From the IMG/VR virus record IMGVR_UViG_3300027881_000017, positions 1-56,115 of that record: a stretch of DNA of 56,115 bases. The stretch is one strand, 5' to 3'. Every line of letters begins with the position of its first letter. Within the stretch, counting starts at the first letter, position 1. The translations under genes and the position numbers were made by a program. Below are positions 21,254 to 51,730 of this stretch, in pieces. The DNA comes from a virus. The notes under the pieces are model-generated. The model was not told the origin of the DNA and made no database searches. It saw only the letters and a list, made by a program, of their open reading frames with translations.

Positions 21254-21589
21254 TCAAAAAATATTTATTAACTTTTTTTGCTTTTTCTCAGACCATTTGG
21301 CTTTAAAGCCATCTCCCACAACATATCCGGTAATAAAGCCAAATTCTCTTAAGTCTTGAATATTGAATTTTTGGAGATCAGATGGTTCGTCCTTCCAGTT
21401 TCTTTTAATTTCAAGCCAGTACCTTGCGTTGCCGCCTTCATTAAAAGAAATTAAAACCATCAAGTCTGGCAAACCGGTTTCTTGGTATCGGCCACCGTGG
21501 ATTTTTATAAATCTGATTTTTGTGGATTTTAGAGGGAATCGTTCATGAACTATTTTTTTTATTAAACTAATATTCTTGTTTTGTAGCAT
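21254..21589 (-). CDS. VRR-NUC domain nuclease
   Basis: 111 residues, the size of stand-alone phage VRR-NUC proteins of the PD-(D/E)xK superfamily. Visible motifs: HGGRYQETGLPDLMVL (31-46) with Asp42, and YWLEIKRNW (58-66) giving ExK at Glu60/Lys62, then a Gln-containing helix (DLQKFNIQDLREFGF). The family includes Holliday-junction and structure-specific nucleases. Its start overlaps the end of the hydroxymethylase gene by 23 bases, placing it in the modification operon. Confidence 0.8.
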   Translation of the reverse strand: MLQNKNISLIKKIVHERFPLKSTKIRFIKIHGGRYQETGLPDLMVLISFNEGGNARYWLEIKRNWKDEPSDLQKFNIQDLREFGFITGYVVGDGFKAKWSEKKQKKLINIF

Positions 21590-22445
21590 TTTTTCTTATC
21601 CAATGTTTTTGGATTACCTCAAGTGCGTTATCTAAATATTCCGATTCGGTTAAAAAATTGATACGACTAAGCTGCTTTCCTGATCTTATTTGATTTTCAT
21701 AAAACCAAAATTCTTGTAGTTCCATCCCTGTTTTCTTGTAACTAAGATCCCATTTAAATTGAACATGATCATTAAATAATAGCCCCGCGTTTATTATCTT
21801 TTCTTTTTGCTCAATCATATCTGTATACAGATGCAAGCTGGTAACAACATGAGTATATATTCCGATCGGTATTTCAAGCCAACGAGCCATGACTTCTTGT
21901 ATAAATGTAAACTGGCTGATGTCATATGGAAATCCCCACATCGCATCGTTCGATCTCATGTATCCTACCATATCGAGTCCGTTTTCAGATACCTTAAAAT
22001 TTAAAGCGAGCGTGCAGGGGGTATTTTCTCGGTCGCCTCGATTGTCTTCAAGATAGTTATAAATATTTACCACCGCTTGCCTGGTTTGTGGATCCCGCTT
22101 TAAAAGGCTATATATATATGGAAGCTGCTGAGATATCCTGTAACCGTAGGATCCCGGGTCTATGAAGTTTGATTCTACAAATCTACTATAGTTTTTGTTA
22201 TATGACGTTATGATATTTGGGTAAAAGCCGACGCCGCTGATATATGATAATTTTTCAATAATATTAAACGCGTAATTAAGCCTTCGTTCTTTTAACGTTA
22301 TCAGTGAATCGGCGGGGTTAATCTCCACGACATATGGCGTGTCGGCTGCTTCGTAATAAATTAATCCTCTACTTGTTTTTTCTACGCTTGCTATTCCGAC
22401 GCAATCAGACAGCACCTTTAAATAAATTTGATTGATACTTTTCAT
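21567..22445 (-). CDS. Thymidylate-synthase-fold deoxypyrimidine hydroxymethylase (dCMP type predicted)
   Basis: 292 residues, AAAGGAAAAA before the ATG. TS-family landmarks: SYGYRIS (99-105), RQAVVNIY (122-129), NTPCTLALNF with catalytic Cys144, GYMRSNDAMWGFPYDISQF (161-179), THVVTSLHLY (198-207). In thymidylate synthases the FPFN Asn reads dUMP; here it is Asp175, as in T4 gp42, which uses dCMP. I infer a dCMP 5-hydroxymethylase making hydroxymethyl-dCMP with methylene-tetrahydrofolate. Neighbouring dCTPase-like, kinase-like and glycosyltransferase genes fit this. Confidence 0.75.
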   Translation of the reverse strand: MKSINQIYLKVLSDCVGIASVEKTSRGLIYYEAADTPYVVEINPADSLITLKERRLNYAFNIIEKLSYISGVGFYPNIITSYNKNYSRFVESNFIDPGSYGYRISQQLPYIYSLLKRDPQTRQAVVNIYNYLEDNRGDRENTPCTLALNFKVSENGLDMVGYMRSNDAMWGFPYDISQFTFIQEVMARWLEIPIGIYTHVVTSLHLYTDMIEQKEKIINAGLLFNDHVQFKWDLSYKKTGMELQEFWFYENQIRSGKQLSRINFLTESEYLDNALEVIQKHWIRKNATKQEY

Positions 22446-23358
22446 TTACTTTTTCCTTTATTAATTTTGCATATTCGAGAATTTTATCATGTTTAAATCT
22501 AAGATAGTATTGCGGATGCGGAATGAGTTCATGTCTTATATTACACCTTTTTAATAAGTCAGCTGCTTTTTTCCCAAGAGCAATTACAATGCCTGGTTTT
22601 ATAGCAGCATTTTCGTTGTGCACCATCTCTTTATTAACAAAATCGTTTGATGTTTTTATTGCGTTTGTAATATAAAAATCTTGTTGATTTAATTTGGTCA
22701 ATTCTAATACCTGGTGCAAATATGCGCTTGAGTTAGAGTGATATGCAAATGCTTGTTTTCTGCTCGTTCCAATATATGATCCATCTCCATATTGATTGCC
22801 CACAAGCATGATTTTACCTCCATAAATGTTTCCAGAACATTCATACGAGGACATAGCAGCACTCCTACGACATAAAGAATCATAAAATGATAAAACATAT
22901 TCGATGAACCTATTATTGTGGTAAAGTGGCATAGAGATCATCGGTAGAATTGTCTTTTGTATAGTAGTTTCAAATAATTTTATTTCTTGTTGTATTTGAT
23001 CTTTTTTTATAAAGTTTTCATTTAGTTCGTCATGTTTTTTTCTTAAAAAATCAATGTTCGCCGAACAACATAATAACAATGCTCCTTTTGCTAATAAAAT
23101 TCTTTCAATCAAATGTTGTTCCCATGTTTCAAACGGTTTCCGTCCAGGTTTCAAGTGTGGGTATACGCAGTTCCCAAGATGAAATCGATCAAGTACTGTT
23201 CGCAAGCTTCGTGTTAATGCTTTTTCTGCATAATATTTTAATGGTTCGATGTTTTGAGGAGGCGGCCCTTCATGGACATGGTGGTAGTTTAAAATCCTTG
23301 CTAATTTTTTTGCAAGAGTTGTTTTTCCTGAATTGTTTGGTCCTTCAATTATTATCAT
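22405..23358 (-). CDS. P-loop dNMP kinase fused to a uracil-DNA-glycosylase-fold domain
   Basis: 317 residues. N-terminal half (1-165): Walker A GPNNSGKTT (6-14), LDRFHLGN (56-63, the DR(Y/F)H motif of thymidylate and nucleoside kinases). C-terminal half (181-300): LVGNQYGDGS (185-194) at the place of the UDG GEAPG loop, AFAYHSNSSAYLHQVL, FYITNAIKT (228-236), IVIALGKKAADLL and IPHPQYYLRF (279-288), the pattern of family-4-like UDGs. The catalytic acidic residue of ordinary UDGs is not evident. The kinase would phosphorylate hydroxymethyl-dCMP; the second domain could check or exchange bases. The fusion inside a modification operon is the oddest gene here. Confidence 0.7.
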   Translation of the reverse strand: MIIIEGPNNSGKTTLAKKLARILNYHHVHEGPPPQNIEPLKYYAEKALTRSLRTVLDRFHLGNCVYPHLKPGRKPFETWEQHLIERILLAKGALLLCCSANIDFLRKKHDELNENFIKKDQIQQEIKLFETTIQKTILPMISMPLYHNNRFIEYVLSFYDSLCRRSAAMSSYECSGNIYGGKIMLVGNQYGDGSYIGTSRKQAFAYHSNSSAYLHQVLELTKLNQQDFYITNAIKTSNDFVNKEMVHNENAAIKPGIVIALGKKAADLLKRCNIRHELIPHPQYYLRFKHDKILEYAKLIKEKVNEKYQSNLFKGAV

Positions 23359-24470
23359 AAGGCCTCCTTTAATAAAAGTTCAATCTCGCTTAATTCTTTG
23401 TTGAGATCCAATGAACTTGATAGTTTTTCTTTAAGTTGTGGCATTATTTTATTTCTTGTTGTTAAGTTTTGCTTGATTTCGTTTGAGTCATTGACTAAAA
23501 GATATTTTTCTATATCATGTGATCCACCATAGCCTTCAAGAGAAAAATCGGAACTTTGAAAAAACATATTTTTATCAATAAAACAAGGAATGCCTGAAAA
23601 TATTGCATGATAGTGCCGTAAGCAATATGAGGATAGTTTCATATATCTTTCTTCATATATTTGTACTGTGAATGCGTATTTGTTTATAATATTTTGTTGA
23701 TTGTTAAACAATATGTAGTTTTTATATATAAAACTGTAATTTGGCCAAAACCTATTTCCGTAATGATCTATTCTTTTTTCAATTTTTTTCAACAATCTAT
23801 CAACAGAGTGATTTCTTCCTTCTCTAATGTTTCCTACATATACTCCTTTGTTTTCATAGTCTTTAATTATTTTCATATCTTTTAAATAGTAGCATTCAAA
23901 TCTGCATAAATCAACAAATCTAAATGTATATAATTTTTCTTTAGTTTGATAAAATGTCATCGTGTCGTTTTGCTTTTCACGATATTTTTTCACATGCGCT
24001 GCATTACACCAAATTATTATTTTTTTTATATTTTTAAATATTTCTTCTGGTTTGGTTTCTAATTTTTCTTTATAATGTTGTTTAGATTCCCAACCAAACA
24101 ATTTCTCTGCATTGTAAATTAGATATAAATCGGGATCATTTTGTGAATATATTATCGAACCGCTCCATCTTGAAATAACGTTGTATGCATCGATTATATA
24201 ATCACAAGATAATAAATTTGCCCATCTGCCGTTAATGATAAATAAAATATCGTATTTTTCGGGATCAAATTTCGACCAATGTTGATAACTTACATTTCTA
24301 ACAGTTGAAAACAAGTCATCGTTTTTCAAGTCTATCGGCGTAAAAAAAGTTATTTTGTGGTCTCTTTTTCCAAGTAATTTTAATAACGTTGTCTCTATTG
24401 TATACATTTTCTTACTATCAGAAAATATGAACAGTTTTCTTGGGCACACTACAGCTATTTTATATGGCAT
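23355..24470 (-). CDS. GT-B glycosyltransferase, DNA beta-glucosyltransferase-like
   Basis: 371 residues, GGAGG before the ATG. Layout follows T4 beta-glucosyltransferase: KIAVVCPRK start with a short-chain selection helix, DPEKYDILFIINGRW (69-83), then KGVYVGNIREGRNHSVDRLL (208-227) where T4 has its GGSFRSGQRES UDP-contact segment, HYGN, and an SSYCLRHYHAIFSGIPCF region like the C-terminal UDP-sugar site. Predicted to transfer a sugar to hydroxymethylcytosine in DNA. Unlike the other glycosyltransferases here it sits in the early operon with nucleotide enzymes. A protein or glycan target cannot be excluded. Confidence 0.6.
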   Translation of the reverse strand: MPYKIAVVCPRKLFIFSDSKKMYTIETTLLKLLGKRDHKITFFTPIDLKNDDLFSTVRNVSYQHWSKFDPEKYDILFIINGRWANLLSCDYIIDAYNVISRWSGSIIYSQNDPDLYLIYNAEKLFGWESKQHYKEKLETKPEEIFKNIKKIIIWCNAAHVKKYREKQNDTMTFYQTKEKLYTFRFVDLCRFECYYLKDMKIIKDYENKGVYVGNIREGRNHSVDRLLKKIEKRIDHYGNRFWPNYSFIYKNYILFNNQQNIINKYAFTVQIYEERYMKLSSYCLRHYHAIFSGIPCFIDKNMFFQSSDFSLEGYGGSHDIEKYLLVNDSNEIKQNLTTRNKIMPQLKEKLSSSLDLNKELSEIELLLKEAL

Positions 24471-25563
24471 TTTTCCTCCAGTTTTTTGTATAGTCTGTTA
24501 CGTTTGGAATGTCATCAAAAAGAATGATTTCTTTATTTTGATTAATTAAAAAATCGTAACATTGCTCTGCTACGTAAGTTCCTACGTTTGCTGGGATTGC
24601 CTTTCCTACCTCAGCCATTTGTTTGTCAATGTTTATAGTTGGTGAAAATTTAAAGTTATCTGGCAATGACATCGCTCTTGCACGTTCACGTATACTAAGT
24701 TGACGATTTAATATAGGATGAATATATTTGTCAGCGGTTAGTATAACTGGGCAAGGTTTGTTATATCGCAATTTCGTGTCCGCATAAAATCCAAATATTT
24801 TTTTTCTTTTTTTCTCTATCCGCTTGTTTAAAAAGTAATCACTTAAATGCTGGTCTTCTAAGTCGTTTATACTTTCTCCTTGTTTTAAATGTTTCCACAT
24901 ATTTAACATAGATGTTTTTCTTATTTCTATCTCATGATTATATATAAATTTCTTTCCAACTTTTTGTTTAAATCCCTTGTTTACCGGAATTTTTTCAAGA
25001 TCAGAAATGATGTCTTGAAGCACCAATGCTTTTTGTTGTTTTGGAATATCAAATTTTATATAATCTTTTTTACTTGCTGCAAAAAAAACCCGTGGGCGAT
25101 TCTGTGCAACTCCATGATTAAGGGCATTAGTAAGAAATATATTTATTTTATAATCTGATAAAATATTTTTTGATATATCTAAAATTAATTCTTGGCCTTT
25201 TTTATATAAGCCTTGGACTGACTCAAGTACTATAATTTTCGCGTTTAGTTTTTTTCCTGTTTCACAAAGTTCGTATATATATTTATTCCATTTTGAATCT
25301 AATCCTCTGTCATACGTGTTGAGTATGCTAAATCCAAAGCAAGGCGGATTGCCATAACAAATATCGCATCCTTTATAATTGTTTACTGGCCATTTGTCAA
25401 CATAGACAGGTACGTTAGGAAAATTTAACTTAAACGTATCTACGCCAAAGTTTTTAAAGTCGGGATTTTCAAAGTGTGCAATAATATCAAAATATTTATT
25501 TATGCCTACAGAAAAATGACCAGAAAAAACTGAAATACCGACCGCTGTTGGTTTAGTATCCAT
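24460..25563 (-). CDS. C5-cytosine DNA methyltransferase
   Basis: 367 residues. Motif I FSGHFSVG (13-20), motif IV GNPPCFGFS (71-79) with catalytic Cys75, motif VI LESVQG (113-118; ESV in place of ENV), motif VIII AQNRPRVFF (153-161), motif IX/X LSIRERARAMSLPDNF and EVGKAIPANVG near the C-terminus. A full-length, probably active enzyme of the Dcm/HhaI type with a short target-recognition region (about 190-280). It overlaps the glycosyltransferase by 11 bases. It may protect cytosines, or prefer the hypermodified genome's residual C. Confidence 0.88.
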   Translation of the reverse strand: MDTKPTAVGISVFSGHFSVGINKYFDIIAHFENPDFKNFGVDTFKLNFPNVPVYVDKWPVNNYKGCDICYGNPPCFGFSILNTYDRGLDSKWNKYIYELCETGKKLNAKIIVLESVQGLYKKGQELILDISKNILSDYKINIFLTNALNHGVAQNRPRVFFAASKKDYIKFDIPKQQKALVLQDIISDLEKIPVNKGFKQKVGKKFIYNHEIEIRKTSMLNMWKHLKQGESINDLEDQHLSDYFLNKRIEKKRKKIFGFYADTKLRYNKPCPVILTADKYIHPILNRQLSIRERARAMSLPDNFKFSPTINIDKQMAEVGKAIPANVGTYVAEQCYDFLINQNKEIILFDDIPNVTDYTKNWRKNAI

Positions 25564-25984
25564 CTTCTTGCCTTCTAATATTTTCTTTTAGTTTAACTAA
25601 GTAATAATCTTCTATCTCGTCGAACGGCATATTCCAAATAAACGCAAGGTTAAATATAAAGTGTAGTAAATCAATGATTTCAAATTTAATTTCTTCTGTT
25701 TCCAGTTTATGCTCAGTATAATTCTTCCAATGTTTCCATGGAAGCCAGCCCATTATCTCAGAACATTCGTCGTGAATTGCATGGATAATTTCTTTAGTTA
25801 CTCTTAATTTTTCACCTCCAACTAAATCATCTATAGATTTTCTATTTGAATTAATAATTCCTTTTCTGATCATCATCGGTATGATATGTTTATCAATATA
25901 TTTTTTATGTTCTTCAAATATCTCGATCATTGGAATATTGAGTGGTTTCTTCGGCGTCAAATGTTTCATTGTCTTTTTCTCCAT
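25553..25984 (-). CDS. All-alpha NTP pyrophosphatase, dimeric dUTPase/dCTPase-like
   Basis: 143 residues, GGAGGG before the ATG. Metal-binding pattern of the family: IHDECSEIMGWLPWKHW (69-85, ExxE) and EIKFEIIDLLHFIF (98-111, ExxD), closing with VKLKENIRRQEDGY, characteristic of dimeric dUTPases. T4 gp56, which destroys dCTP and dUTP so that only hydroxymethyl-dCTP is used, belongs to the same superfamily; that role fits the neighbouring hydroxymethylase. Confidence 0.78.
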   Translation of the reverse strand: MEKKTMKHLTPKKPLNIPMIEIFEEHKKYIDKHIIPMMIRKGIINSNRKSIDDLVGGEKLRVTKEIIHAIHDECSEIMGWLPWKHWKNYTEHKLETEEIKFEIIDLLHFIFNLAFIWNMPFDEIEDYYLVKLKENIRRQEDGY

Positions 25985-26486
25985 AATTTCCCTCCATCCT
26001 GTCGATTAATGAATAAAACTCAGGACTACTGTTTTCAGGTTCTAATGTTAAATTTTTTATATCATCGATCTCTTTTTTTGTTAACTCCCAAATATCTTGC
26101 ATTATTTGAATTGGAAAATTCACCATATTTTTTCCGTTTTGCGTTTTAAGAATTTCAGCATATTTCATTAAAGCTGAAATTGGTTTACCATATGCTTTTT
26201 TATTCTTATAGTCAACGAATATTATCAGAATATCTTTAGGATATTTTATATAAATATTATAGATGTTTTCTGTAAATCCTATTTTTCCATTACTCATAGG
26301 TTCTTGAGTTTTAATTTGAACTAACGTAGTGTTTCCTGTTTCTTTGTTTATCAGTACGTAGTCTATCGGTGAATATCTTTGCTTTACTTCTGCTACGTCA
26401 TATCTACCGTCATGTAAAAAATGTTCTTCAAATAATTTTTCTCCTAAATTACCTTTTGCTTCTTTTCTTTTAGTTTCATCATTCAT
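25914..26486 (-). CDS. PD-(D/E)xK nuclease, HJR/REase-like
   Basis: 190 residues. The first 110 residues carry GNLGEKLFEEHF (12-23, conserved Glu), SPIDYVLINKETGNTTLVQIKT (39-60) with Asp42 and QxK at Gln57/Lys59, and DILIIFVDYKNKKAYG. This is the group of Holliday-junction-resolvase-like and type II restriction-like endonucleases. The C-terminal 70 residues are acidic. It overlaps the dCTPase-like gene by 71 bases. It may resolve replication or packaging intermediates, or attack unmodified DNA. Confidence 0.68.
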   Translation of the reverse strand: MNDETKRKEAKGNLGEKLFEEHFLHDGRYDVAEVKQRYSPIDYVLINKETGNTTLVQIKTQEPMSNGKIGFTENIYNIYIKYPKDILIIFVDYKNKKAYGKPISALMKYAEILKTQNGKNMVNFPIQIMQDIWELTKKEIDDIKNLTLEPENSSPEFYSLIDRMEGNYGEKDNETFDAEETTQYSNDRDI

Positions 26487-30345: not shown

Positions 30346-31194
30346 CTATTCTTCATCGTCTGCAAATGGATTTTCTTCGTCTTCGTTAAATTTGCCTTTG
30401 TCCTCATCCTCTGGCTTGGATTTCTTTTCAACGTTTCTCTGTTCTGCTTTTATTTCGTCTTCGTCCTCATGGACTTCAACCTGGGTTGATGTTATTAACT
30501 TGTAAAACTCCTCTCCTTTTTTTATTTCGTTTTTTTCTGCCATTCCTCCCGGTGCTATTTTGAATTGAAAATAAGTACCTTTGACATTTTCCTTAAAATC
30601 TGTCGAAAGATTATAGGCGAAATGCCAGCTATTTTTTTGCGCTTTTTGCGCATCAAAATAAATCATATTTCTTAATTGCTTGCCCGCACCCATCGATGTT
30701 CTACCGAACGACGCGGTTAATGGTATCGGAAAGTCATATCCTCTAACGATGCAAAAACTGTTTATTAATTCAGTACATGGAGGCGGAATGCCCTTGCCTG
30801 TTTTTTCATCTATCGGCCACGGATTTGGATTAAACTCACAGCCAATGCAATTCCCGCCAGGTTCGCCCCTGCCTGTTTTTCCATTAAGTGATTGACATAA
30901 TAAACCGCCTCCTTCGCCGAAATCCCGAAACATTAGTCGTGTCGGATGGAATTTTAAAGGAATAATAGTAAGGGATTCATCTGTCTCGCATATTACCTCT
31001 TTTGTTACGCTGTTAACAACCTCCCCTGGCTTGGCGGTTTTATCATCAATTTCCACACTGTTCTTTTGGACAAGTTTTAATCGGGGGATTGTTAACATGT
31101 CCTGAGTGATGCCTTCAAGGCCGGCAATTACTCCGTCTTTCGTTTTGACGACTGCCGTATCGCTGGGTTTTTTTACTACATCTTTGTTTGCCAT
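30346..31194 (-). CDS. Probable single-stranded DNA binding protein
   Basis: 282 residues. Begins with a Lys/Thr-rich tail, then DMLTIPRLKLVQKNS, PGEVVNSVTKEVI, LTIIPLKFHPTR, a Cys cluster (LCQSLNGKTGRGEPGGNCIGCEF split over 99-120, and PPPCTELI), and ends in a strongly acidic tail with NPFADDEE. The acidic C-terminus and the position between the SNF2 helicase and the primase fit a phage SSB; the Cys cluster suggests bound zinc. No OB-fold alignment can be run here. Confidence 0.6.
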   Translation of the reverse strand: MANKDVVKKPSDTAVVKTKDGVIAGLEGITQDMLTIPRLKLVQKNSVEIDDKTAKPGEVVNSVTKEVICETDESLTIIPLKFHPTRLMFRDFGEGGGLLCQSLNGKTGRGEPGGNCIGCEFNPNPWPIDEKTGKGIPPPCTELINSFCIVRGYDFPIPLTASFGRTSMGAGKQLRNMIYFDAQKAQKNSWHFAYNLSTDFKENVKGTYFQFKIAPGGMAEKNEIKKGEEFYKLITSTQVEVHEDEDEIKAEQRNVEKKSKPEDEDKGKFNEDEENPFADDEE

Positions 31195-31196
31195 AA

Positions 31197-31565
31197 TTAA
31201 ATTCTCCTTAAGTTAAGTTTTGGTTCGGTATATGATTTTACTCCCGGTGGGAGTTTGTTTGTGCTGTCTAACATTTCTTTAATTGCAGCAGAGCTAACCC
31301 GTTTTTGCATCATCTCGTATTTACCGTTTTTAACTACCCAGTTGGCAAATAACTCAAGGTCTTCAACTCCTGGATAAAATCCTATACTTATGCTGGCGCT
31401 GGCCTTAATTCCTTTTACGGCTTTAACGTCTTCAGCCTGCATGTGTGATATAATATCTATTTGTATAATATCAAAATCTTTTTGAATATCTGAGACAATT
31501 TCCTTTGCTTTTAATTTTTTCTCTCTTAATTCAAAAAGTTTATCAATTTTTTCACCTAATGTCAT
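31197..31565 (-). CDS. Conserved phage protein next to the SSB-like gene
   Basis: 122 residues. An N-terminal charged helix (EKIDKLFELREKKLKAKEIV), then VKGIKASASISIGFYPGV, MMQKRVSSAAIKEMLD, PPGVKSYTEPKLNLRRI. I know this pattern as a frequent unannotated neighbour of phage recombination and SSB-like genes. It has 3 bases between its stop and the next ATG. Function unknown. Confidence 0.6.
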   Translation of the reverse strand: MTLGEKIDKLFELREKKLKAKEIVSDIQKDFDIIQIDIISHMQAEDVKAVKGIKASASISIGFYPGVEDLELFANWVVKNGKYEMMQKRVSSAAIKEMLDSTNKLPPGVKSYTEPKLNLRRI

Positions 31566-32011
31566 ATTTTAAACTCCTTTTTTACATATTTTTTATTTTT
31601 TGCATCCCATAATAACAACCATGCGCTCCCAAACTTACCACAGATCGCTCCCATTACAAAATTTAACGGCAGCCCGCCACTCAATAATATATAATCTTCC
31701 TTGTGGTTATAATGATAGGTTCCCAGTATATCTTTTAAAGTATATAGCAACCGATCTAAATTAAAAACGTCTACATTCCCTTCTGTAACCGGAATTAGCA
31801 TCCCGTATTGTTTGGCATCGCTCATATCTTTGCCAACATGATTAACTACAAAAACCCGACTATCTTGCATAGGTACAACCTCCTTTCTTTTACATATTTT
31901 ACATATTTGAATTTCCGTACTTTGGAAATTTTTATGATAAGTTATTTTACAGTGAATACAGGTGAAGGCGTCGGTGCTCAATAACTTTTTCTTATGTGTA
32001 CTTGTCTCCAT
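31562..32011 (-). CDS. Conserved phage protein with N-terminal zinc finger
   Basis: 149 residues from 32011, or 102 from an internal ATG at 31870 that has a much stronger AAAGGAGG site. The internal start gives the common phage family with VFVVNHVGKDMSDAKQYG, LLYTLKDIL, DYILLSGGLPLNFVMGAI and LLLWDAKNKKYV. The extra N-terminus holds two Cys pairs (CIHC, CKIC), a real-looking zinc finger, so two products are possible. Function unknown. Confidence 0.62.
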   Translation of the reverse strand: METSTHKKKLLSTDAFTCIHCKITYHKNFQSTEIQICKICKRKEVVPMQDSRVFVVNHVGKDMSDAKQYGMLIPVTEGNVDVFNLDRLLYTLKDILGTYHYNHKEDYILLSGGLPLNFVMGAICGKFGSAWLLLWDAKNKKYVKKEFKI

Positions 32012-39199: not shown

Positions 39200-39402
39200 C
39201 CGATACGGAGAAAATGCGGATAGGGATCAAAGATTCTGATCAACTGTCGCAATTTATTAAGGATGTAATTGTCATGCCGATGGAACACAAGATAACTGGC
39301 AATGTAACTATCCATTTTTTAGAAGGAGAAATAAGAGCCGTAGAAATAAATCAGCATACCAGAGTGCTTAGTCAAATAACTTTCTTTAAGGAGGTAAAAT
39401 GA
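39196..39402 (+). CDS. Small protein downstream of terminase, unknown
   Basis: 68 residues from the ATG at 39196 that overlaps the terminase stop (ATGA). IKDSDQLSQFIKDVIVMPME, GNVTIHFLEGEIRAVEINQH. A short alpha/beta protein, possibly a regulator; no family recognised. Confidence 0.55.
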   Translation: MTDTEKMRIGIKDSDQLSQFIKDVIVMPMEHKITGNVTIHFLEGEIRAVEINQHTRVLSQITFFKEVK

Positions 39403-40082
39403 TAAATGTAATAATTCCTAACTATGGGCATGAATGTTACTTGCCAGATCTAATCGCTTCGCTGACTCATCAAGACAATGCAAATTGGATAGCAACAATA
39501 TATAACGACGATGACCGACCAGGCAAGGAACTTGGATATGTGTTTGATGAGCATTGGGTTTATTGTAAGGACGACAGGAAGAGGATAGGGCAAGCAGCAA
39601 GATTTAACCAAGGGATTGTAAAAGCGGATAATGAATGGATTTCTTTTATGGGCGCTGATGATATTGCGATGCCATGGAAGATAAGTTCTATATTGGATTA
39701 TGCAGAAAATGCTGATGTCATTTATACTGACGCTGTTCAGTTGATGCTAAACGACACAAGGTTGTATATCAAAAGCGATAAACCTATTGAACAGATTTGT
39801 GATCAAAACTTTATAGTAGCGTCTACCGTAGCGGTTCGTCGGCAGTTTTTATTAGATCATATCATACGGTTTGACGAGAAGTTGTCATATGGAGAGGATT
39901 GGTTGTTTTATAATCAACTTGCTATTGCCGGAGCAAAGTTTAAGTACCTGCCCTGGCCTACCGTATATTACCGGGATTATACTTCGAATATCATGATTAG
40001 GGGCAGACCGGAATGGCACCAAAGGAAAAAACAAATTTATGATAAGATTCAGCAGTTATATACTAATATTAAAGGAGGATAA
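39399..40082 (+). CDS. Glycosyltransferase family 2
   Basis: 227 residues, AAGGAGG upstream. GT-A pattern: VIIPNYGHECYLPDLIASL, IYNDDDRPG, AARFNQGIVKADNEWISFMG, ADDIAMPWKI (metal-binding acids), then LSYGEDWLFYNQL (catalytic base ED). First of a block of sugar genes between terminase and portal. Confidence 0.85.
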   Translation: MINVIIPNYGHECYLPDLIASLTHQDNANWIATIYNDDDRPGKELGYVFDEHWVYCKDDRKRIGQAARFNQGIVKADNEWISFMGADDIAMPWKISSILDYAENADVIYTDAVQLMLNDTRLYIKSDKPIEQICDQNFIVASTVAVRRQFLLDHIIRFDEKLSYGEDWLFYNQLAIAGAKFKYLPWPTVYYRDYTSNIMIRGRPEWHQRKKQIYDKIQQLYTNIKGG

Positions 40083-40818: not shown

Positions 40819-41027
40819 TGGATACTTGTAAATGCGACAATTGCGGAAATGATATGCCAAAAATATTTGGCAGAACAGTAGCGGTGGTGGAAATAAAGAA
40901 AGATGATCATATTGATATGGTCGTTACTTACAGAAGATGGCGGTCCTTAGAGCCTGGGAAAGAGGCTGATATTTGCGAGGAATGCCACAGCAAGTTCATT
41001 AGAAAATTTAAGCAGGAGACGCAATGA
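40818..41027 (+). CDS. Small zinc-finger protein
   Basis: 69 residues with CKCDNCGNDMP near the start and ICEECHSKFIRKFK near the end, a two-knuckle zinc ribbon separated by a beta region. One of at least seven small CxxC proteins in the genome. Overlaps both neighbours. Confidence 0.58.
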   Translation: MDTCKCDNCGNDMPKIFGRTVAVVEIKKDDHIDMVVTYRRWRSLEPGKEADICEECHSKFIRKFKQETQ

Positions 41028-42052
41028 AAAAGATACTTATAACCGGAGCGCCGGGATTCGCTGCAAGTCATTTGGTAAAACGTTTATTAAGCGAAGATGT
41101 TTTATCAAAAGATAGTATTGAAATCCATGGCACCAAGCGGGTCCGGTCGGACATGTACCGGCTGGAAAAGAAGGGCCTAATTGGTGAGATCAATTTTCAC
41201 TTAATAGAATTAACAGATGCTCATAGTGTATATAATGTAATAGCAAAAGTAATGCCGGATCAGATATATCACCTGGCGGCTCAGGATTATGTTGAGTCAA
41301 GTTGGGAGGCGCCGCATGAAACATTCCATACTAATATCGATGGAACGATAAATCTATTTGAAGCGGTACGGAGATGCTATAATCCAGAACCAGAAAAATG
41401 GATTTCAACAGGACGAGATATGCCGATATTTATAGAATATCCTAAGATCTTGGTCACTTCAACCAGCGAGACTTACGGTCTGCATAAGGAGGAGATATAT
41501 GAAGGAACAGAACAGCATCCCAACAACCCGTATGGGATTAGTAAGCTGGCTCAAGATATGTTGGCCCGTCTTTATAGTAGGAGTTATAATATACCTGTTG
41601 TTATCACACGTTCCTTTAACATCACCGGCTGGGGCAGGAATGATCCTTTTGTTGATAGTGATTTCGCTCGACAGATTGCTGAGATAGAAAAGGGTGCTGG
41701 TAGAGAGGCCGTATTGAATCATGGTAATCTTGATAGCAAGCGGACGTTCTTTGATGTTAAAGATGCGGTGCGGGGATATTACCTGGCCATGGAAAGCAAG
41801 TACAAGGATGGCGATGTGTTCTGTTTTGGCACAGATACAAGTACCAGCATCAAAGATTTACTTGGTATATTGTTTTCACTTACTGATGTAGAAATCAGGA
41901 GCAACGAACAACAGGACAGATTGCGCCCGGTAGACACATCTGATATGAGATGCGATGCTTCAAAGGCAAAGCAATTATTGGGATGGGAACCAACGATACC
42001 GCTTAAACAATCTTTAGAGGATCTGCTTAACTACTGGAGGGAGCGATTATGA
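41024..42052 (+). CDS. NAD-dependent sugar epimerase/dehydratase (GDP-mannose 4,6-dehydratase-like)
   Basis: 342 residues, extended short-chain dehydrogenase fold. ILITGAPGFAASHLVKRL (4-21, nucleotide-binding loop, GxxGFxxSH variant), IYHLAAQDYVESSWEAPHET, VTSTSETYG with the Ser/Thr, NNPYGISKLAQD (YxxxK), NITGWGR, DSKRTFFDVKDAVRGY, and the C-terminal RPVDTSDMRCDASKAKQLLG. Makes an activated deoxy sugar, presumably the donor for the phage's own glycosyltransferases. Confidence 0.88.
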   Translation: MKKILITGAPGFAASHLVKRLLSEDVLSKDSIEIHGTKRVRSDMYRLEKKGLIGEINFHLIELTDAHSVYNVIAKVMPDQIYHLAAQDYVESSWEAPHETFHTNIDGTINLFEAVRRCYNPEPEKWISTGRDMPIFIEYPKILVTSTSETYGLHKEEIYEGTEQHPNNPYGISKLAQDMLARLYSRSYNIPVVITRSFNITGWGRNDPFVDSDFARQIAEIEKGAGREAVLNHGNLDSKRTFFDVKDAVRGYYLAMESKYKDGDVFCFGTDTSTSIKDLLGILFSLTDVEIRSNEQQDRLRPVDTSDMRCDASKAKQLLGWEPTIPLKQSLEDLLNYWRERL

Positions 42053-49479: not shown

Positions 49480-49782
49480 ATGGAATTTTTCGAATTAGAT
49501 AAACGAGTACCTATCTTACAACGGGAACTTCTCGGAGGCGTAAAAACCTCCGAGTATTCCTGTACTATTTACAAGAATTCAGACGGGCCATTTTTCATAG
49601 TTCGTATTAACGATCGAGAATTCATGGTTCGGGTCGGCAGTATTTTTAGAACAATAATTGACGTTGCAAAAATTAAACCTTTACAAAAGGTAAAAAATGA
49701 AAATCACATTAGTGATGGTTCTGAAGGACGAAGCAAGAACCATAAGGAAAGCGATAGAGTCCGTGCTCCCCATAGTGGATGA
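49480..49782 (+). CDS. Small protein between decoration and sugar genes, unknown
   Basis: 100 residues, start at the ATG directly after the previous stop (TAAATG). MEFFELDKRVPILQRELLGG, GPFFIVRINDREFMVRVGSI. Its last 29 codons overlap the glycosyltransferase in another frame, so the C-terminus is less certain. Confidence 0.5.
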   Translation: MEFFELDKRVPILQRELLGGVKTSEYSCTIYKNSDGPFFIVRINDREFMVRVGSIFRTIIDVAKIKPLQKVKNENHISDGSEGRSKNHKESDRVRAPHSG

Positions 49783-51730
49783 GGCGGTAATCGCAATTGA
49801 CAAAAGTACGACAGACAAAACCAAAGAAGAAGCTCACAAGGTTTTAGGCAATAAATATACTCAATGGTATGAGTTTGACTTTGAGGACGATTTTTCTAAA
49901 GCAAGAAACGAGTATATTGCCAAAGCCAACCATGAATGGGTTCTTATTTTGGATGGTCATGAATATATTGACCAGTCTTGCCTGCCTTTCCTTAAAGAAA
50001 TAAAAAAGAATCCGCCCAAGAATGTTCAAATTTTTGATTTCAACATTTATGAACCCAGGGATGGAAGATATTTTCAGCAGCCTCGCCTTTTCAAATCTGC
50101 AATAAGATACGAGCTGCCGATTCATAATATGATACGGCAAAGGGATTATCGGCTTTCTATGCCCCAAGTCACTATTTGGCACAATCAACCTGATGATAGA
50201 TATAAGGCAAGACGTGAGCAGCGTCGAAAAATGAATTTAAAAGGGCTAACAGAAAAAGCAAACAAGGGCGATGTTCGCAGCATGTATTATTTAGCTGATG
50301 CTTTTTATGAATTAGGCGATTTGAAAAATGCAGCACATTGGTTTAAGAAGTATATTCCGAAGAGTGATTTTCCACACGAGAGATATACAGCCAGAATCAG
50401 GATGGCTGTAATCACTGAAAGATTAGGCGACGATGAACAGGCTGAGAAATACGCCATGTATTGTTTCGACGATGAAGTGAATTTAAATGAGCATTTGATA
50501 TTTCTCGGAGATTTAAAGTATAAACAAAAAAATTATTATCGGGCAATTTATTTTTACAGATTGGCCGCAGTAATAAAGATCCCTGAAATGTTTTTGATAG
50601 TTAGCAAAGCGTGCTATACTTGGATTCCTTGGTACAAATTAGCGATGGCATACGGGATGATGAATGATTTAGATGGTGTTAGAGAATGCATCATCAAAGG
50701 AAAACAACTTGCGCCGGAGCGGGATGAGTTTTTTGAATTAGAGGACCAGATTCAAAAAACAATAAAAGTGCATAATCTTAAAAAGAAAGGCAAGGTCTAT
50801 ATAGTTGCATCTTTGCCTCGATTTATTGAGCCGATCTTTAAAGATTTTGTAGAGAAGGGTGATTATTATGTCAGGTTTGATCAACAATTTAATCCTTATA
50901 ATGCTGAAAATGCCGATGTAATATTCTGCGAGTGGGCAGATCACAATGCGATAGCAGTTAGTAATTTTAATAGTAAGGCCAAAAAAATAATTCGGATTCA
51001 TGCCTATGAAGTGTTCAGTGATTTTATTGATAAAATTAATTTTCAAAATATTGACGCTCTTGTTTTTGTAGCCAATCACATTAAAAAGTATTTTATGAAA
51101 AGGGCACACGGGATAGATGACATCAAGACCACTGTAATAAGTAATGGGGTGGATCTTAATAAATTTACCATACCATCTAAAAAAAAGCCCAACAATAAAA
51201 TAGCGTATGCCGGATATATTTCTAATAAAAAAGGCGCAGTGTTACTTTTGCACACAGTGCATAATTTTCCAGAATATGAGTTTCATGTCGCTGGGACATT
51301 CCAGGAGCCAGATGTTCAGGAGTTGTTTGAGCGAAGAAAATCAGAGAATTTATTTTTATATCCATGGCAAGAGGATTTGAATAGTTTCTTCGCTGATAAG
51401 ACTTACATAATTAATACTTCGCCTCGGGAAGGCTGCCCGGTTGCAGTTCTTGAAGGAATGGCTGCCGGTTTAATGCCATTAGTGTTTCGTTGGGACGGGG
51501 TTGATGATATGTTTTCATGGGGCTGGTCAAGTTTAAAAGGACTACAAGAATTGTTATATCGTTCTGTAGATTTCAAGGCAAACAGAGCGCATATAGAACT
51601 TAAATTTGATTTCAAGGAAAAGAAAACACAGATTAAAAATTTAATCGATTCACATATAAAGGAGAAAGATGATGTCAGAGAAAATGATCAAACTGCAGTT
51701 CAGGCCGTCAAAGAGCCATCGCACTCATAA
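49697..51730 (+). CDS. Bifunctional glycosyltransferase: GT2, TPR and GT-B domains
   Basis: 677 residues. Residues 1-165: GT-A (LVMVLKDEARTIRKAIESVL, IDKSTTDKTKEEA, ARNEYIAKANHEWVLILDGH). 185-360: TPR-like helices (DVRSMYYLADAFYELGDLKN, YYRAIYFYRLAAVIKIP). 365-660: GT-B/GT4 (IIRIHAYEVFSDF, ISNGVDLNKFTIPS, IAYAGYISNKKGAVLLL, PREGCPVAVLEGMAAGLMPL). Could build a disaccharide on one acceptor. Encoded inside the head module. Overlaps both neighbours. Confidence 0.85.
   Translation: MKITLVMVLKDEARTIRKAIESVLPIVDEAVIAIDKSTTDKTKEEAHKVLGNKYTQWYEFDFEDDFSKARNEYIAKANHEWVLILDGHEYIDQSCLPFLKEIKKNPPKNVQIFDFNIYEPRDGRYFQQPRLFKSAIRYELPIHNMIRQRDYRLSMPQVTIWHNQPDDRYKARREQRRKMNLKGLTEKANKGDVRSMYYLADAFYELGDLKNAAHWFKKYIPKSDFPHERYTARIRMAVITERLGDDEQAEKYAMYCFDDEVNLNEHLIFLGDLKYKQKNYYRAIYFYRLAAVIKIPEMFLIVSKACYTWIPWYKLAMAYGMMNDLDGVRECIIKGKQLAPERDEFFELEDQIQKTIKVHNLKKKGKVYIVASLPRFIEPIFKDFVEKGDYYVRFDQQFNPYNAENADVIFCEWADHNAIAVSNFNSKAKKIIRIHAYEVFSDFIDKINFQNIDALVFVANHIKKYFMKRAHGIDDIKTTVISNGVDLNKFTIPSKKKPNNKIAYAGYISNKKGAVLLLHTVHNFPEYEFHVAGTFQEPDVQELFERRKSENLFLYPWQEDLNSFFADKTYIINTSPREGCPVAVLEGMAAGLMPLVFRWDGVDDMFSWGWSSLKGLQELLYRSVDFKANRAHIELKFDFKEKKTQIKNLIDSHIKEKDDVRENDQTAVQAVKEPSHS

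Follow-up and report, generated by a model that had tools for sequence, protein, structure and literature searches.

The window analysed here is the whole 56,115-nt stretch of virus record IMGVR_UViG_3300027881_000017, which carries a 123-bp direct terminal repeat and is therefore probably a complete genome. The ORF listing of the window showed seven ORFs with overlapping ends on the minus strand at 21254-26486, as described in an earlier sequence-only reading, and five of the seven labels proposed there were retained. The two nuclease labels fared less well. The first gene of the operon (25914..26486) was annotated as a putative PD-(D/E)xK-type nuclease, its sole support being a D...QIK-like motif recognized by eye; Pfam, PHROG and other libraries gave no relevant match, the tail-chaperone matches being irrelevant. 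The VRR-NUC label given to the gene at the opposite end (21254..21589) is likewise weak, with a match to the PHROG 'endonuclease' family (E 1.1e-5) but a Pfam VRR_NUC score (E 0.074) under the Pfam cut-off. PADLOC returned no defence system in the window, only generic methyltransferase, kinase P-loop and helicase matches.

The five remaining genes have better-defined affiliations. The product of 25553..25984, proposed earlier as a counterpart of the T4 dCTPase, matched Pfam dUTPase_2 (PF08761, E 9.3e-11), and T4 gp56 was matched by a profile built from related phage proteins (E 4e-23 by hmmsearch in a two-sequence search; 99 % by hhalign), which assigns this all-alpha hydrolase to the gp56 family. 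The thymidylate synthase (TS)-fold product of 21567..22445 matched Pfam TS (E 8.8e-17) and had the CMP 5-hydroxymethylase MilA as its closest PDB structure (9e-23). It carries Asp175 (codon 21921..21923, at the position of Escherichia coli TS Asn177) in place of the Asn of uracil-type enzymes, together with Arg122 and Ser165; these three match the residues that set dCMP recognition in MilA and T4 gp42 (PMC5175136, PMC6400193). The dUMP hydroxymethylase gp29 of SPO1, in contrast, aligned with Asn at the specificity site. Catalytic Cys144 and Glu64 and the ribose-contacting His205 and Tyr207 are also present and were invariant (n=56). The Asp175, Arg122 and Ser165 signature marks the enzyme as dCMP-type and a predicted hydroxymethylase, in agreement with the original label. 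In a published metagenomic study, contigs with modified cytosine had Asp at this site and unmodified ones Asn, and phosphoribosyl-ATP pyrophosphohydrolase and dCMP deaminase were co-occurring genes (PMC8670742). Loci related to ours contained the same two partners, with dCMP deaminase in most of the operons, although an HMM search did not find dCMP deaminase near the TS gene in the window.

Upstream of the TS gene, 22405..23358 encodes a 317-aa protein with matches to both Pfam UDG (5.1e-10) and Thymidylate_kin (3.8e-7), bearing out the proposed fusion of a kinase to a uracil-DNA glycosylase (UDG)-superfamily domain. Its AlphaFold2 model was confident (pLDDT 90.4, pTM 0.88). Residues 1-168 (22855..23358) form a P-loop deoxynucleotide-kinase domain of the YorR/thymidylate-kinase type (PDB 3kb2, Z 19.6; 2axp, Z 19.5), and residues 169-310 (22429..22854) resemble UdgX (6l6s, Z 14.6) and family-4 UDG (1vk2, Z 14.1). 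The likeness to these glycosylases lies in the fold and in the motif II His and Arg; the fusion differs in its divergent motif I, in being joined to a nucleotide kinase and in having no conserved set of the four Fe-S cysteines of family-4 UDG and UdgX. The UDG half contains Asn188 (motif I), Asn232, His281 and Arg287, the last three of which were kept in 50/56, 48/56 and 47/56 non-redundant fusions, respectively. Motif I has an acid (D/E) in 44/56 fusions; since it is Asn in this phage, the activity of the domain here is uncertain. An Asp-type TS gene lay on the same strand in all 56 fusions, within 300 bp in 54, the Asp count being alignment-based. In one retrieval, TS within 300 bp accompanied 39/41 fusions and 3/20 kinases lacking the UDG domain (p 3e-10), the kinase-only loci being an imperfect negative control as some carry other TS types. 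The UDG domain lies beyond the T4 gene set, as previously noted, but is a recurrent operon component rather than a peculiarity of this phage. Our literature search found no kinase-UDG fusion in phage DNA modification, though an earlier mention is possible. The 2013 computational survey of DNA-base-modification systems by Iyer and colleagues would be the likeliest place for one.

The 371-aa product of 23355..24470 had no relevant match in Pfam, PHROG, NCBIfam or phages when searched alone, and direct searches of phages, viral contigs and genomes found no relatives. It was recovered through intermediate sequences, an iterated profile reaching it at E 1.4e-12 before inclusion. A profile of its relatives built without any T4-type beta-glucosyltransferase (BGT) matched PDB 1bgt at E 1.4e-19. 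Against the BGT profile, the protein ranked first relative to 400 controls, a ranking that leaves out the BGT of Lactobacillus phage ATCCB, itself a profile member. By alignment, T4 BGT residues Glu22, Asp100, Arg191, Arg195, Tyr261 and Arg269 are kept, whilst the Glu272 position is occupied by His288. The presumed functional residues of T4 BGT, namely Asp100, Glu22 and the donor-binding arginines, have Asp112, Glu26, Arg216, Arg219 and Arg285 as their counterparts here; the first of these (codon 24135..24137) was Asp in 29/29 aligned sequences. An AlphaFold2 model of this protein alone had a pLDDT of 33, and the fold assignment rests on the profiles, which identify it as a divergent relative of the T4 GT-B enzyme, in line with its beta-glucosyltransferase-like label. 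BGT-family genes were found beside Asp-type TS genes in about 20/114 non-redundant loci, with ends often overlapping or touching. A glycosyltransferase-like cluster in L008, L038 and L048 did not match the window protein. Elsewhere in the window, an NDP-sugar epimerase/dehydratase on the plus strand (41024..42052; PF16363, 4.7e-63; PHROG nucleotide-sugar epimerase) may possibly be the source of the sugar donor.

The product of 24460..25563 has a C5-cytosine-methyltransferase (C5-MTase) fold (Pfam E 8.2e-32), so the label holds for the fold, but altered motifs set it apart from ordinary methyltransferases. The Cys75 nucleophile and QNRPR (QxRxR) are kept, and in place of the canonical FxGxG, PCQ, ENV and GNA are FSGHFS (motif I), NPPCF (IV), ESV (VI) and GKAIP (X); the four phage controls used for comparison were canonical at PCQ, ENV and GNAVP. 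At least 14 relatives encoded next to an Asp-type TS share the altered AdoMet (motif I), PCQ and ENV motifs, and a TS gene lay within 3.5 kb for 16/21 relatives. Like the UDG domain, this enzyme is an addition to the T4 scheme, but one that recurs in such operons. It probably modifies cytosine further, with a change in the cofactor or substrate that it uses.

Several functions may be weighed for these two additional components. The retained Cys, QxRxR and fold of the C5-MTase-fold protein, and its good matches to type II methyltransferases, would fit a conventional, solitary 5mC methyltransferase that the phage merely happens to carry; we consider this unlikely given that the changes in motifs I, IV, VI and X are shared among relatives and that most of these lie close to TS genes. 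A comparison with CmoX, the DNA cytosine carboxymethyltransferase of Synechococcus phage S-B43, is suggested by the structure of SpCmoX (8yf3) among the PDB matches, by the absence of Gln after PPC, and by a basic residue at the position of HhaI Asn304. This is Lys321 in the window (codon 24601..24603) and Lys, Arg or Gln in relatives, several having Arg; the equivalents are Arg350 in CmoX and N374K in the engineered carboxymethyltransferase M.MpeI (PMC12783734). A CmoX-like enzyme using Cx-SAM is nonetheless improbable, as CmoX has canonical motifs I (FAGGGG) and VI (ENV) and SPPC where our enzyme has NPPC, acts on a GC target motif and is accompanied by CmoA and CmoY, whereas CmoA was found in neither the window nor 14 related contigs by a search that detected the S-B43 positive control, and the tree places the window subfamily apart from CmoX. 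A class-I methyltransferase beside many such operons was examined as a candidate CmoA, but its profile matched UbiG/Hen1 instead. For the UDG half, a catalytically dead reader or a structural part of the kinase is a serious possibility, consistent with the loss of the motif-I acid here, the variability of that motif across the 56 fusions and the missing Fe-S cysteines; conservation of Asn232, His281 and Arg287 and retention of the acid in most fusions argue against it. More speculatively, the C5-MTase-fold subfamily, which derives mainly from Asp-type TS operons, might be non-methylating, acting on 5-hydroxymethylcytosine or with a non-SAM donor and so adding a hypermodification beside glycosylation, with the kinase-UDG fusion policing hydroxymethyluracil; we regard this combination as rather unlikely.

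Comparison with characterized phages clarified which parts are shared. As in T4 (gp56, gp42, gp1 and b-gt), there is a gp56-family hydrolase, a dCMP-type TS fold, a nucleotide kinase and a BGT-family glycosyltransferase, here in one operon. The kinase, unlike that of T4, is of the YorR/TMK type and fused to a UDG domain, the glycosyltransferase is very divergent, a C5-MTase-fold enzyme is added and no alpha-glucosyltransferase homologue was identified. The gp27-gp31 module of Stenotrophomonas phage AXL3 shares the overlapping order of kinase-UDG fusion and Asp-type TS, with an NTP pyrophosphohydrolase upstream, but includes a dCMP deaminase and a class-I SAM methyltransferase; neither a BGT-family nor a C5-MTase-like gene was seen in the AXL3 stretch. 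Of 37 enzymes tried on AXL3 DNA, only two cut it, and their sites consist of A and T alone (PMC7504290). Altered C and altered G would both fit this result, and the digests do not tell them apart. ATCCB shares an Asp-type TS beside a BGT-family glycosyltransferase (TS/beta-glucosyltransferase/UDP-galactopyranose mutase), and differs in its separate kinase without UDG and in its mutase.

Taken together, the gp56 family membership, Asp-type TS, BGT relative, 56/56 linkage and AXL3 restriction resistance support the T4-like scheme of the sequence-only reading, and we consider it likely that the operon makes and sugar-decorates 5-hydroxymethylcytosine that replaces cytosine in the phage DNA. Judging by its family, the hydrolase would convert dCTP to dCMP, and from its signature residues the TS-fold enzyme would add the hydroxymethyl group to dCMP. 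The kinase half may then phosphorylate hydroxymethyl-dCMP, host enzymes would complete the triphosphate and the replication polymerase would insert hydroxymethyl-dC instead of C. After replication, the BGT-family enzyme would move a sugar, from a presumed donor, onto the hydroxymethyl group in DNA. Our tentative first choice for the UDG half is excision of uracil or 5-hydroxymethyluracil arising from deamination of (hydroxymethyl-)dCMP or from use of dUMP by the hydroxymethylase. CTAG (0.06), AGCT (0.37) and CGCG (0.36) were strongly depleted in the window but not in the T4 and AXL3 stretches compared, which argues mildly against complete, long-standing protection; restriction pressure therefore seems not to have been fully removed.

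A thymine hypermodification pathway like that of SPO1 or ViI, in which hydroxymethyl-dUMP would be the product of the TS-fold enzyme, with roles for the kinase and the UDG domain as well, could draw on the dUTPase name of the hydrolase family, the presence of SPO1-like dUMP hydroxymethylases among the best phage TS matches and the dCMP deaminase of most related operons. It is highly improbable, however, given that the TS next to each of the 56 fusions has Asp at the specificity position and SPO1 gp29 has Asn, and given the proximity to MilA, the cutting of AXL3 DNA at A/T-only sites and an operon glycosyltransferase in an hmC-directed family. The TS-fold enzyme might alternatively be a dCMP methyltransferase giving 5mC DNA, with the glycosyltransferase acting on another target, as Asp at 177 governs base preference and not the choice between hydroxylation and hydride transfer (PMC6400193). 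We judge this very unlikely: BGT-family genes recur beside Asp-type TS, and hydroxymethyl is favoured over methyl because the glycosyltransferase requires a hydroxyl acceptor, which a methyl group cannot provide.

With the hydroxymethylcytosine pathway as the preferred reading, the analysis connects the restriction resistance published for the cultured phage AXL3 with a specific set of genes that dozens of uncultured viruses also carry, and the module may therefore serve as a metagenome marker for modified cytosine. The T4 glucosyltransferase family is also broadened to take in members invisible to ordinary searches. The kinase-UDG fusion and the unusual C5-MTase relative, which go beyond the T4 set, turn up again in dozens of unrelated viruses, and both this fusion and the altered-motif family are candidates for novel DNA chemistry or for a step that controls nucleotide quality. 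Should the C5-MTase-fold enzyme prove to be non-methylating and the fusion to police hydroxymethyluracil, these viruses would possess a cytosine-modification system richer than that of T4.

The virus record, at 56,115 bases, is probably a complete phage genome, because it carries a direct terminal repeat of 123 bp. The minus-strand operon extends from 26486 to 21254, with plus-strand terminase, portal, capsid and tape-measure genes on either side, and the ORF positions bore out the overlapping gene ends described in the sequence-only reading. Elsewhere, three minus-strand genes adjacent to one another (30346–32011) were similar to the cyanophage Pam3 gp34, gp33 (below the cut-off) and gp32 families.

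The TS-fold enzyme (21567–22445, minus strand; Pfam thymidylate synthase, 8.8e-17) had the CMP 5-hydroxymethylase MilA as its nearest solved structure (9e-23), with true thymidylate synthases far behind (1.8e-9). Its specificity residues were located by alignment to published determinants: an Asp aligned with Asn177 of the E. coli enzyme selects cytosine, and an Arg and a Ser aligned with Lys133 and Ala176 of MilA select deoxyribose (PMC5175136, PMC6400193). The window enzyme carries Asp175, Arg122 and Ser165 at these sites and agrees with T4 gp42 at 8/8 compared sites, whereas the dUMP hydroxymethylase SPO1 gp29 has Asn in place of the Asp. A metagenomic association study found that Asp at this site goes with modified-cytosine contigs (PMC8670742). 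In a search of two sequences, a profile of the hydrolase (25553–25984, minus strand; dUTPase_2, 9.3e-11) and its phage relatives picked out the dCTPase/dUTPase T4 gp56 (4e-23). An hhalign comparison of the hydrolase family with gp56 gave 99%, and both proteins have RQ-x-x-GY at the C-terminal end. Both enzymes stand as the proposed counterparts of gp42 and gp56.

Queried alone, the glycosyltransferase (GT; 23355–24470, minus strand) had no relevant match in any library searched. Scored with a profile built from seven phage beta-glucosyltransferases (BGT), with 250 other ORFs and 150 shuffles as controls, it ranked first (33.7) once the enzyme of Lactobacillus phage ATCCB, a profile member, was set aside; shuffles averaged 15.4 (sd 2.4, maximum 24.1), and the second-ranked ORF (33.4), from viral locus L080, itself turned out to be a BGT relative. 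Intermediate relatives were drawn from neighbours of the closest Asp-type TS genes in scanned viral contigs, and a profile including them recovered the window GT at 1.4e-12 before its own inclusion. Conversely, a profile of the window GT and nine relatives, containing no T4-type BGT, matched T4 BGT structures at 1.4e-19 (next unrelated match, 0.05), substantiating the BGT-like label. In the alignment, T4 BGT Glu22, Asp100, Arg191, Arg195, Tyr261 and Arg269 are retained and Glu272 is replaced by His.

The ATCCB, L080 and L157 loci encode UDP-galactopyranose mutase alongside TS and GT. In L080 (7995–12749), separate kinase and UDG genes are followed by the mutase, a BGT-family GT and an Asp-type TS, a gene row that suggests a furanose on hydroxymethylcytosine. 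The window has an NDP-sugar epimerase/dehydratase (41024–42052, plus strand) among its structural genes, as well as a GT2 glycosyltransferase (39399–40082, plus strand) and a 677 aa GT2-TPR-GT1 protein (49697–51730, plus strand). The epimerase/dehydratase product may be used by these two glycosyltransferases rather than the operon GT, and all three genes possibly serve virion glycosylation.

An AlphaFold2 model of the kinase-UDG fusion (22405–23358, minus strand) built with 42 sequences (pLDDT 90.4, pTM 0.88) resembled YorR (Z 19.6) and thymidylate kinases over residues 1–168, and UdgX (Z 14.6) and family-4 UDG (Z 14.1) over residues ~169–310. Scanning viral contigs with a profile yielded numerous relatives. 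Collapsing the fusions at 90 % identity, loci from the closest-TS contig scan included, left 56; all 56 had a same-strand TS, within 300 bp in 54, and the TS specificity residue was Asp at every one. In the kinase-UDG scan alone, TS lay within 300 bp of 39/41 fusions vs 3/20 UDG-less kinases (p 3e-10, for loci not independent in descent); this linkage was not built into the scan, since its query was the kinase-UDG alignment, without TS. A dCMP deaminase was near 39/43 loci of the first fusion set; upstream there was often a hydrolase of the PRA-PH or dUTPase_2 type.

Active-site residues of the UDG half were largely kept among the 56 fusions (Asn 50, His 48, Arg 47, motif-I acid 44, the last being Asn in the window phage), and residue counts revealed no conserved set of Fe-S cysteines. 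Where retained, the uracil-type Asn is compatible with excision of U or 5hmU. Our best guess for the UDG half is quality control, because deaminases and imperfect hydroxymethylases would yield 5hm-dUMP. Two further families were observed: a 156-aa family lacking a Pfam match directly upstream of the kinase-UDG gene at 21/43 loci (e.g. L003:11459–11941), and a UbiG/Hen1-like class-I SAM methyltransferase, a candidate hydroxymethylcytosine modifier, adjoining Asp-type TS at 24/114 non-redundant loci (e.g. L001:10602–11426, L088:7830–8594).

The C5-cytosine methyltransferase label held for the fold: the enzyme (24460–25563, minus strand) shares homology with the methylases HaeIII and HhaI, but motifs I, PCQ, ENV and X are altered. 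It and its relatives near Asp-type TS lack the FxGxGG glycine pair of motif I; PCQ has become PCA in relatives and PCF in the window enzyme, ENV is ESV in nearly all of the family, and the motif X Asn is replaced by Lys, Arg or Gln. Phage control methyltransferases were canonical at PCQ, ENV and GNAVP in 4/4 cases and at motif I in 3/4. A TS gene lay within 3.5 kb for 16/21 relatives. Engineers have altered two positions, HhaI Asn304 and the Gln that follows PPC, to make room for bulkier donors. The motif X Asn is Asn304 in HhaI; at its position CmoX, a DNA carboxymethyltransferase occurring naturally in Synechococcus phage S-B43, has Arg350, and engineered M.MpeI N374K has Lys (PMC12783734). 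Unlike the window family, CmoX has motif I and ENV intact, and a search of the window and of 14 related contigs, some of which are fragmentary, found no CmoA. Judged by these shared motif changes, the CmoX comparison and the absence of CmoA from the contigs searched, the family is a distinct subfamily, although the enzyme may be a simple methyltransferase.

CTAG, AGCT and CGCG occurred across the window (1–56115) at 0.06, 0.37 and 0.36 of expectation, unlike in the T4 and Stenotrophomonas phage AXL3 stretches. Complete, long-standing protection would not predict such depletion, which counts mildly against it; the depletion could instead stem from a recent acquisition, from modification that is only partial or from a composition resembling the host's. 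AXL3 has the same kinase-UDG/TS pair, plus a pyrophosphohydrolase and deaminase. Its DNA resisted 35/37 enzymes, being cut only by TasI and Tru1I at A/T-only sites, and its authors were unable to name the modification (PMC7504290); the kinase-UDG/TS module offers an explanation, namely modified cytosine.

In sum, the T4-like cytosine pathway holds up as a prediction from sequence, through the TS residues, the gp56 family, the BGT profiles and the kinase-UDG/TS linkage. The UDG domain and C5-MTase, proposed as additions to that scheme, do lie outside T4's set and recur at related loci; what extends beyond T4 is a recurrent kinase-UDG fusion and an altered C5-MTase-fold family.
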